The notes under the pieces are model-generated. The model did no database searches. It worked only from the letters and a program-made list of their open reading frames with translations, and was not told the DNA's origin. From an uncultured Opitutia bacterium (lineage in GTDB: Bacteria > Verrucomicrobiota > Verrucomicrobiia > Opitutales > Opitutaceae): 61,331 nucleotides of DNA. Shown here one piece after another: positions 15,542 through 61,331 of this stretch; position 1 is the first letter of the stretch, and the number at the start of each line of letters is the position of its first letter. The translations under genes and the position numbers were made by a program. Location: positions 1 to 61,331 of the forward strand of contig CAIRTK010000024.1 in NCBI GenBank assembly GCA_903881475.1. The letters run 5' to 3'.

Positions 15542-16612
15542 ATGATCTCCATCCGCATTCAGAACCTGACCAAGCGCTTTGGGACGGTGACGGCGCTGCA
15601 CCACCTGGATTTGACGATCAATCCGGGTGAATTGTTTTTTCTCCTCGGACCCAGCGGCTGCGGTAAAACCACGCTGCTGCGGAGTCTGGCGGGGTTCTAT
15701 ATCCCGGAGGAGGGGCGGATCTTTTTCGGCGACGAGGAAGTGACCCGGCTCGAGCCGCACAAGCGGAACACGGGCATGATGTTTCAGAGCTATGCGCTCT
15801 GGCCGCACCTGACGGTGGCAGAGAACGTGGCGTTCGGGCTGGAGGAGCGGAAGGTCGCGAAGCCGGAGCTCAGGCGGCGCGTCGGCGAGGCGCTTGAGTC
15901 CGTACGCATGGCACCATTCGCGGAGCGCCGGCCGAACCAGCTTTCCGGCGGGCAGCAGCAGCGCGTGGCGCTGGCCCGGGCGCTGGTGATCCGGCCGCGT
16001 TGCCTGCTGCTTGACGAGCCGCTGTCCAATCTCGATGCCAAGCTGCGGCTGGAAATGCGCACGGAAATCCGCCGCATCTGTAAGGAGTTCAAGCTGACGA
16101 CGGTGTATGTGACCCACGACCAGAAGGAGGCGCTGTCCATCTCCGACCGGATGGCGATGATGGACGGCGGAAAAATCCTGCAGGTCGGCACACCCGGGGA
16201 AATCTACCGCCGCCCCGCCTGCAAGGCCGTCGCGAATTTCATCGGGGAGACGGATTTCATCCCGGGCACGGTCACCGGTCTGGCCGGCGGCCGGGTGACG
16301 GTGGAGACGGCGATCGGCCGCTTCGAGGGCGTGGCGGGCGACCCGGCCGCGGCGCCGGCGGTGAAAGACCCGGTCACGCTTTCCATCCGGCCGGAGTGCT
16401 GGATGCTGAGCCGGGTGCGGCCGGCGGGGAACACGGTGGCAGGGCGAATCGGCGAGTCGGTTTATCAAGGGGAAGTGGCCCAGTATGATTTCATCACCGG
16501 CGGCCACACGCTGAAGATGCTCGAACTGAATCCGCGGTTTCTCGATCCGGCGGCGTGCGGGGAGCTGTTTGCCAGCGTGGCGCCGGAGGACGTGGTGGTG
16601 CTCCGGAGCTGA
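15542..16612 (+). CDS. ABC transporter ATP-binding protein (PotA/FbpC type)
   Basis: 356 residues. Walker A GPSGCGKTT is at 36-44, the signature LSGGQQQR at 134-141, Walker B LLLDEP at 155-160, and a switch His in YVTHDQ. The extra C-terminal region (about 240-356) is a TOBE domain, as in importers for iron, spermidine or 2-aminoethylphosphonate. A substrate-binding protein gene follows 9 bp downstream, but no permease is adjacent. The best candidate is the fused permease at 29097-30791. Confidence 0.9.
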   Translation: MISIRIQNLTKRFGTVTALHHLDLTINPGELFFLLGPSGCGKTTLLRSLAGFYIPEEGRIFFGDEEVTRLEPHKRNTGMMFQSYALWPHLTVAENVAFGLEERKVAKPELRRRVGEALESVRMAPFAERRPNQLSGGQQQRVALARALVIRPRCLLLDEPLSNLDAKLRLEMRTEIRRICKEFKLTTVYVTHDQKEALSISDRMAMMDGGKILQVGTPGEIYRRPACKAVANFIGETDFIPGTVTGLAGGRVTVETAIGRFEGVAGDPAAAPAVKDPVTLSIRPECWMLSRVRPAGNTVAGRIGESVYQGEVAQYDFITGGHTLKMLELNPRFLDPAACGELFASVAPEDVVVLRS

Positions 16613-59598: not shown

Positions 59599-59925
59599 TT
59601 ACGCGAGCTGTTTAGGCAATGAAGTGGTAAGACTGGGCAGGAGAGGGACACCTTCGGCGAGCCTCCTGGCCTCTGTGAGTTCCAGCGCATCTGTCCGGCT
59701 CATTTGATCCGCCTGTGCCAGCCCCGCGGCGAGTTGGGAGGCCTTGAGCGCGGCGAAATCCTTTGCCCCATCCAGATCGGCAAAAGTTTTCTTCTCGCGT
59801 CCGTCCGGGCCAATCCAAGTCGCGCAGTATGCAAAACCGCTTCTGGTGGTCAGGGCCCCATATCGGTAGACCTTGACGGTGACCGATTGCTCACGAATCA
59901 GGAGCGGGAAGGAAAGGGCTTTCAC
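59599..59925 (-). pseudogene. Short ORF resembling the arm-binding N-terminus of a tyrosine integrase
   Basis: 108 codons from GTG at 59925. The opening SVTVKVYRYGALTTRSGFAY then CATWIGPDGREKKTFADLDGAKDFAAL resembles the N-terminal arm-binding region of tyrosine recombinases common in this phylum. The core-binding and catalytic (RHRY) domains are missing: the frame stops and the next gene begins about 40 bp later. It lies near the 3' side of tRNA-Glu, a usual attachment site. A relic is the best reading; a small independent protein is the alternative. Confidence 0.4.
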
Positions 59926-60034: not shown

Positions 60035-60109
60035 TGGTGCCCCCACGGGGAATCGAACCCCGCTTTGAAGATTGAGAATCTCCTGTCCTAACCGATAGAC
60101 GATGAGGGC
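60035..60109 (-). tRNA. tRNA-Glu (CTC)
   Basis: Folds into a full cloverleaf. The acceptor GCCCTCA pairs with TGGGGGC, the anticodon stem GGAGA pairs with TCTTC and its loop TTCTCAA gives anticodon CTC, and the T-arm is GCGGGGTTCGATTCCCCG. The discriminator is A and CCA is encoded (60035-60037 on the plus strand). It reads GAG codons. The gene sits beside an integrase-like ORF and a broken comM. Confidence 0.95.
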
Positions 60110-60237: not shown

Positions 60238-60726
60238 TCAGTAGAACAGCGTCCGATCCAGGCTGCGGTACTGGATGGCCTCCAGCAGATGCTGTGCCTC
60301 GATCCTTTCGACGCCGGCGAGGTCAGCGATGGTGCGGGCGACCTTGAGGATGCGGTCGTAGGCGCGCGCAGACAGGCTGAGCTGCTCCATCGCCTGCTGG
60401 AGCAGGTCGCCCAGCGAAGCGTCGATTGCGCAGTGACGCCGGATCTGCGCGTGAGTCATGCGGGCGTTGGCCGCGACCTTCGTGCCGGTGAAGCGGGACT
60501 GCTGGCTGGAGCGGGCGGCCTCGGTCCGGCTGCGCACGGCGGAGGAGGGTTCGCCGGCCTTCTCAGAGCGCAGCTCACCCAGGGACAGGGCGGGGGCGTC
60601 AATATGGATGTCGATGCGGTCGAGCAGCGGCCCGCTGATGCGCGAGCGGTAGCGCTGAATCTGGGTTGGCGTGCACCGGCACTCGTGCTTGGCATCGCCG
60701 AGATAGCCGCACGGGAACGGTTTTAC
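60238..60726 (-). pseudogene. comM: ComM/YifB Mg-chelatase-like protein, C-terminal fragment
   Basis: The frame gives about 162 codons and ends in TLFY. It reads [40 protein letters not shown] and the [20 protein letters not shown]-terminal domain, all typical of ComM. A whole ComM has about 500 residues. Upstream, homology stops within the NPCPCGY motif near 60720 and an in-frame stop occurs at 60727-60729. The N-terminal AAA+ part is therefore cut away by inserted DNA. ComM is a helicase that helps integrate DNA in natural transformation. Confidence 0.85.
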
Positions 60727-61094
60727 TTATTCACTGATAAAGCCGTTTCGACGATTTCAACGACATACATTTGAAATGATCGATTGGGTAGGGAACGGCA
60801 GGGTTTGCGTTAAAGAATCGATCCATTTGGTCAGAAACAGCCTTCCTGACGATTTTAAAGCGGAGTCCAGCCGCCAATGTTAGGGGTGTGAGCGACTGAC
60901 TAATTTTAAGTGGGGTGGGCTAATTTGTAGCCGACTTTATTTATCCGAAAGAACCAGCGTTTTCCGATTTGCGACCACTAGTTATCTAACAAGTCCAAGC
61001 GGAAAAATCTTCAACCGGGTTGAAGGTCATGAGACGGGGGGAGTTCATATCCCCTTGTATCGCTGCATTGGGCGAAACCAGCGAACCGAATCCA
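60727..61094. other. Non-coding leader of the inserted element, with inverted repeats
   Basis: No credible gene on either strand over 368 bp, and base composition drops well below the surroundings. Two inverted repeats are visible: AAATGATCGATT at 60774-60785 against AATCGATCCATTT at 60816-60828 (one extra base), and a perfect CTTCAACC-G-GGTTGAAG at 61009-61025. A TTTTCCG near 60960 and CGGAAAA near 61000 could also pair. These could be a replication origin, operator or terminal structure of a mobile element; nothing decides between them. Confidence 0.5.
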
Positions 61095-61331
61095 ATGAAA
61101 AATAACTCAGTCTCAGTCACCCCCTCCGCAGATGCACTTTTGAAGCACCTGCCTTACTACGCAGCTCTTAAAGATTATGACGACAGTCAGTGGCTGATTT
61201 TTGGAACGCTCACCCACGCCTACGAGACGTCACCGACAATCCAGCTCCAAAGATTCAAGACTTTGATGGATACCATCGGTTCGCTGAACCACTTATCTCG
61301 CCACCGATTTCCTTGGACACGGGACAGCAAA
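61095..61331 (+). CDS. Partial ORF, possible HUH-type replication initiator
   Basis: 79 codons from ATG at 61095, cut by the window edge. SQWLIFGTLTHAYE (33-46) has the hydrophobic-x-T-L-T form of motif I in HUH rolling-circle replication proteins, and the following basic, aromatic stretch (RFKTLMDTIG...RFPWTRDSK) would lead to the HUH motif II, which is outside the window. A match to inovirus or plasmid Rep proteins is a guess from pattern. No clear Shine-Dalgarno sequence precedes it. It lies in the less GC-rich insert behind the truncated comM. Confidence 0.35.
   Translation, partial: MKNNSVSVTPSADALLKHLPYYAALKDYDDSQWLIFGTLTHAYETSPTIQLQRFKTLMDTIGSLNHLSRHRFPWTRDSK

Follow-up and report, generated by a model that had tools for sequence, protein, structure and literature searches.

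What has interrupted comM at the right-hand end of the DNA analysed here, and by which route did the foreign sequence get there? The window, a stretch of 61,331 nucleotides from an uncultured Opitutia bacterium, is contig C24 of a draft genome (G000) of 3.2 Mb in 83 contigs. It ends shortly after the 3' part of comM, and a preliminary description of the sequence had proposed that an inserted element splits the gene, likening the case to the AbaR islands of Acinetobacter. The features that bear on the question are listed below by position in the window; amino-acid (aa) positions for the comM parts of G000 follow the numbering of G008, a congener with an intact gene.

60035..60109, minus strand: tRNA-Glu (CTC), downstream neighbour of comM
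60238..60715, minus strand: 3' part of comM (Mg chelatase-like AAA+ ATPase), from the NPCPCGY codons to the stop, by similarity and Pfam
60714..60715, minus strand: putative crossover dinucleotide CC, the first two bases of the second-P codon of NPCP, placed by visual comparison of the left and right junctions of relatives
60716..61293, no strand assigned: right end of the inserted element, low in G+C by G+C count
60716..60745, minus strand: putative attP half-site of the inserted element, resembling the half-site of the large serine recombinase (LSR) element of the congener G004 (local score 12, 0 of 1000 shuffles)
61095..61293, plus strand: N-terminal ORF piece running into the repeat, recognised by its likeness to a protein of G346
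61294..61331, no strand assigned: first 38 bp, up to the contig end, of an IS-like repeat that is present in several copies and measures 140 bp or more

comM is interrupted by inserted DNA

The match to intact comM breaks off inside the NPCPCGY codons, at 60715 on the minus strand. Up to there the window's 3' part is 88% identical in DNA to the intact gene of G008, with a blastn match that reaches 60723, and it retains, by Pfam, the Mg_chelatase C-terminal domain and the end of the ChlI domain. Beyond the junction, the 570 bp from 60724 to 61293 have a G+C content of 46.8% as against 65.4% in the whole window, and the drop that the preliminary description had pointed out is singular, as none of the 1204 stretches of 570 bp (step 50) before 60724 is as low. 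The missing 5' part, which that description had suggested looking for, lies at the very end of another contig of the same genome (aa 5-223; C80:16703-17359; 95% protein identity to G008), and of the two flanks of intact G008 comM, one matches C80 and the other C24. Thus, comM in this genome is interrupted by inserted DNA.

The two parts are all that the G000 assembly holds of the gene. A second, intact comM was not found in it with PF13541, the N-terminal protein, the full protein or the DNA for aa 212-352, and aa 224-352 were not found by protein search or with the DNA query for aa 212-352. A reading of the window's comM part as a decayed duplicate, raised as an objection in the preliminary description, was rejected because no intact comM was found in G000. 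On the evidence of the sequence, ComM would be inactive in this organism. Loss of ComM would lower the integration of incoming DNA, as the preliminary description also held.

The preliminary description took the DNA beyond the junction as one piece, but the last 38 bp of the window begin a separate repeat. The repeat starting at 61294 also lies at the ends of seven other contigs of G000 (eight in total), is preceded by different sequence at each of them and is probably an IS. It would sit inside the element, about 580 bp from the junction, which is probably why contig C24 stops there. The 570-bp flank gave one chance-level match of 28 bp and nothing else in DNA and six-frame protein searches against the compared loci. 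The ORF piece running into the repeat comprises the first 66 codons of its gene. Over 49 aa it shares 59% identity with a protein of G346, 205 aa long and matching Pfam REP_ORF2-G2P (E 1.4e-8); taken alone, the piece has no Pfam or PHROG match. Among 150 genomes of the family searched, it was matched in only G000, G346 and, weakly, G503.

On the other side of the comM part, a remnant of an integrase gene (59602-59925, minus strand) adjoins tRNA-Glu(CTC). Over 106 aa it shares 45% identity with the integrase that neighbours tRNA-Glu in G346 (L134:7338-8600), so that a second integration site may adjoin comM.

Occupied and empty sites in congeners

Comparison with close relatives, as the preliminary description had recommended, shows both states of the site within the genus. 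Twelve genomes of the genus were searched, G000 included: comM is intact in seven (G001, G003, G005, G006, G007, G008 and G011), which represent the empty site, and split or mixed in three (G000, G004 and G010), while G002 and G009, both listed as 100% complete, have no detectable comM. In G004, the 3' part starts at the same NPCPCGY codons as that of the window, and an LSR gene (PF00239, PF07508, PF13408) begins 45 bp from the core, from which it points away; the 5' part ends at the contig end, at aa 293, so that the left junction is outside the contig. In G010, contig C27 carries comM through aa 359 and continues into the N-terminus of a related LSR (57% over 58 aa), where the contig ends, and contig C17 runs through an intact comM site. 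The two contigs have exactly 140 bp in common, and these end at the branch, which is the same codon as the window junction. An overlap of this kind, ending at the branch, is what an assembly graph yields when a sample contains occupied as well as empty sites; the two states stand together in one assembly.

These observations also bear on the possibility that the junction is an assembly error at about 60720, the other objection that had been foreseen. The draft of G000 is fragmented, and the left junction of the window's element was not seen, as an error might have it. However, the contigs of G010 part at the same codon, one into comM and the other into an LSR element, and this junction is also present in further genomes, of which G276 and G207 consist of a single contig, so that we consider such an error very improbable. 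Insertion has occurred at one specific site of comM, and the site has been reused in relatives. Besides the split and the foreign flank in the window, the same junction is seen together with LSR genes in congeners and in other genomes of the phylum.

The LSR of G004 has relatives beyond the genus. Among genome contigs, nine members of its group were found, G004 itself being one; three (L057, L061, L062) have ComM pieces beside the LSR and the other five do not, so that the group is not tied to comM. Six relatives in viral contigs are distant (29-33%), and none of the six has a ComM match in the fetched stretches. LSR genes related to that of G004 were also seen in or beside comM in L062, L061, L057 and L118, and in comM of Halomonas and Billgrantia they lie at aa about 324-330. 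G164, too, is split near there, at aa about 325-331. A Pseudomonadota MAG has such an LSR gene next to a ComM match that stops at aa 223, the residue at which contig C80 of the window's genome breaks off as well.

Attachment half-sites and the class of recombinase

The attP of an LSR consists of two inverted half-sites around a 2-bp core. We consider it likely that a mobile element integrated site-specifically at the NPCPCGY codons of comM, most probably by means of an LSR. The inverted half-sites of the element's attP would have recombined with an attB in comM at the CC core, and integration would thereby have split comM within the motif codons.

Element sequence on either side of the core was compared as inverted repeats over 30 positions, the core having been set by eye from the junctions before any counting. 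In six of the nine elements with both ends visible, 16 to 22 positions match (22 in G381, 21 in both G276 and G389, 19 in G207, 17 in G199 and 16 in G039); counts are lower in G337 (14), G012 (9) and G294 (9). At 100,000 random places in the fetched loci, excluding places with N, the mean was 7.8, with 1501 places reaching at least 14, 205 at least 16 and 4 at least 19; an earlier control that included N had a long tail, 452 of 50,000 places reaching at least 16. Gapped local alignment against 1000 shuffles gave p values of 0 for G276, G207 and G389, 0.001 for G381, 0.013 for G294 and 0.039 for G199, and of 0.285, 0.461 and 0.714 for G039, G337 and G012. We regard the dyad as firm in G276, G207, G381 and G389, as fair in G199 and G039, and as absent or unclear in G337, G012 and G294.

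In the window, one half-site of the attP is visible, the right one. Its local score of 12 with the half-site of G004 was reached by none of 1000 shuffles; six of the window's 61,302 30-mers attain that score against G004, and they lie at the junction and at one other place (15764-15797). Set against 20 arms of other genomes, the half-site scores 9 or more with G004 and G010 only, arm pairs having been shuffled only from a score of 9 upwards, and the score of 9 with G010 is weak, as 330 of the 61,302 windows reach the same. Going by its relatives and by this half-site, the window's own element would have used an LSR and recombined in the way outlined. The assembly of G000, which contains the element only in part, yielded no LSR gene: PF07508 had no match and PF00239 a single one, below the cut-off and with a stop codon. 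Nor did any resolvase elsewhere in G000 score above the cut-off.

It is possible that recombinases of more than one class have used the motif. The insert of about 8 kb at the motif in G012 has a phrog_216 integrase gene about 150 bp from its left junction, with a weak Pfam Phage_integrase match below the cut-off, and a Rep-like ORF. G012 and G337 have 8-9 bp of comM sequence at both ends of the insert, both junctions keeping AACCCCTG. Together with the integrase of G012, this suggests that another recombinase class may use the NPCPCGY motif. A tyrosine-type integrase may thus have integrated the element of the window as well, as may hold for G012, and the relative of the window's Rep-like ORF piece in G346 does lie near a phrog_216 integrase gene that adjoins tRNA-Glu(CTC). 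However, the window junction carries AAACCGTT where G012 and G337 have AACCCCTG, and it resembles the LSR junction of G004. In addition, no similarity is detectable between the Rep-like ORFs of G012 and G346 (E 1.2), and that between the integrases of these two genomes is only weak (E 0.015). For the element of the window we think a tyrosine-type integrase unlikely, and an LSR remains the recombinase that we favour.

The motif across the phylum and known insertions in comM-type genes

How widely the site is used was surveyed with a query of 130 aa across the motif in genomes of the phylum, for which a completeness of at least 90% was asked. This middle region of comM is matched in 356 of 383 genomes and has no match in the other 27. 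Re-examination covered 24 of the 356, picked because their best E-value was weak or they had more than one match, together with G004 and G010, which do not appear in the survey listing; G137, G233, G284, G291, G319, G342 and G368, with two matches and a strong best E-value, were left out. At least 12 of the 356 matching genomes are split at the motif (G000, G012, G337, G039, G276, G389, G199, G211, G381, G076, G207 and G294), one of them, G076, by contig breaks only; the figure is a lower bound, because the seven two-match genomes were left out and only the matches listed were covered. In G211, the right comM part aligns poorly at its start.

An LSR gene lies at the junction in five of the 14 motif-split genomes, namely G004, G010 (N-terminus only), G207, G211 and G294; it abuts or overlaps the junction in G207 and G211 and starts about 170 bp from it in G294. 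In G039 an LSR gene stands about 6.6 kb from the junction; G012 has, roughly 2 kb from its right junction, a short serine recombinase. The fetched stretches of the other seven (G000, G076, G199, G276, G337, G381 and G389), of which those of G000 and G076 contain almost no element sequence, yielded no LSR gene to an HMM made from sequences related to the LSR of G004. In G164, comM is split elsewhere, at aa 322-331, and an LSR gene is found there. As to the other genomes re-examined, the gene is matched over nearly its whole length in G153, G363, G385, G330, G397 and G373, broken at contig ends in G352, degenerate in G322, without match at 1e-6 in G391 and matched to aa 370 only in G332. Additional 3' pieces of comM were seen in two genomes. 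G240 (L124, L125, L126; listed contamination 4%) has an intact, nearly full-length comM and three extra 3' fragments that start at or near NPCPCG, and in G012 three more pieces resembling the comM 3' end lie downstream of the split gene (L031 4964-5114, 6648-6731 and 8650-8762).

In five genomes, the halves of comM lie on one contig, about 29 (G207), 39 (G211), 72 (G381), 80 (G276) and 209 kb (G199) apart, G207 and G276 being the single-contig genomes, and ORFs beside some of those junctions look, by eye, like ordinary genes. Such distances would fit an old insertion followed by decay or rearrangement, after which the element is incomplete and what is left of comM is dead, a history compatible with an LSR origin. 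For the window, the repeat inside the element, the failure to find a recombinase gene and the absence of comM aa 224-352 from the assembly point the same way. However, the remaining comM parts of G000 are without frameshift or internal stop, the one TAA lying on the element's side, and they are still 88% (3', DNA) and 95% (5', protein) identical to G008. We regard a decayed insertion as possible, with some reservation.

AbaR/Tn6022 islands have Tn7-like machinery, tni transposition genes and a short target duplication. That the window ends in a Tn7-like transposon of this type would agree with how commonly such elements disrupt comM (PMC7253598), but the position within the gene is another one: in Acinetobacter baumannii, AbaR islands are reported between comM bases 835 and 836 (PMC8767349). 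By a rough count via two Acinetobacter contigs from a phage collection, which end in comM at aa about 284-290 in G008 numbering and may flank AbaR, base 835 is roughly 65 residues upstream of the window junction. A different insert of 14 kb with XerC/E genes is reported between bases 901 and 902 (PMC8767349). Going by position, the parallel drawn in the preliminary description is not supported, we give a Tn7-like origin hardly any credence, and LSR elements are the better comparison.

In the text covered, Durrant et al. 2022 (PMC10083194) report that 12.4% of predicted site-specific LSRs target magnesium chelatase/ATP-dependent protease genes and that LSR targets are enriched in DNA competence genes. 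The target gene is of the same kind as here, where congeners have an LSR gene at the junction, but that text gives neither the codon motif nor Verrucomicrobiota, and the LSR gene of the window's element was not found. Since comM-family genes are a reported favourite LSR target, the suggestion in the preliminary description that comM is a general insertion site agrees with the reuse of the site in relatives, but it is not new, being already in print (PMC10083194). In Wolbachia, sr1WO prophages are reported in the magnesium chelatase gene (Bordenstein and Bordenstein, PMC9203015); there, too, an LSR prophage splits the gene and leaves parts on either side, like comM here, but sr1WO is a prophage of an endosymbiont, whereas the window's element, over its 580 bp, showed no phage genes. 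Two phage genomes were seen to carry comM sequence, Acetoanaerobium phage ANDSL2_ph1 (L136, PP197248.1) with aa 192-376 beside an LSR gene and Evtepia phage (L137, PV036445.1) with aa 1-308. Literature searches that paired comM or magnesium chelatase with serine recombinases, with integration sites or with Verrucomicrobia, several of them blunt, listed only PMC5447182 (Wolbachia prophages), besides PMC10083194 and PMC9203015, as having the gene name along with integration, and it may tentatively be said that the NPCPCGY site is undescribed in this phylum.

The insertion in the window is real and largely explained, and its probable mechanism is well documented for this type of gene. A more far-reaching scenario is that recombinases unrelated to one another, from several LSR groups and perhaps including a tyrosine-type integrase, share the NPCPCGY codons as a landing strip throughout Verrucomicrobiota, and that elements turn ComM off and on in a population. 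Such switching is suggested by the mixed state of G010, and if insertion is precise and reversible, the elements would control ComM and hence the fate of incoming DNA; we find this scenario rather doubtful. The present cases, which are spread through one phylum, enlarge the set behind the reported serine-recombinase preference for the competence-related comM; the crossover is placed within the codons of a highly conserved motif, and one congener has an assembly with both occupied and empty sites. It thereby becomes easier to test, outside the usual model bacteria, whether silencing transformation benefits mobile elements.
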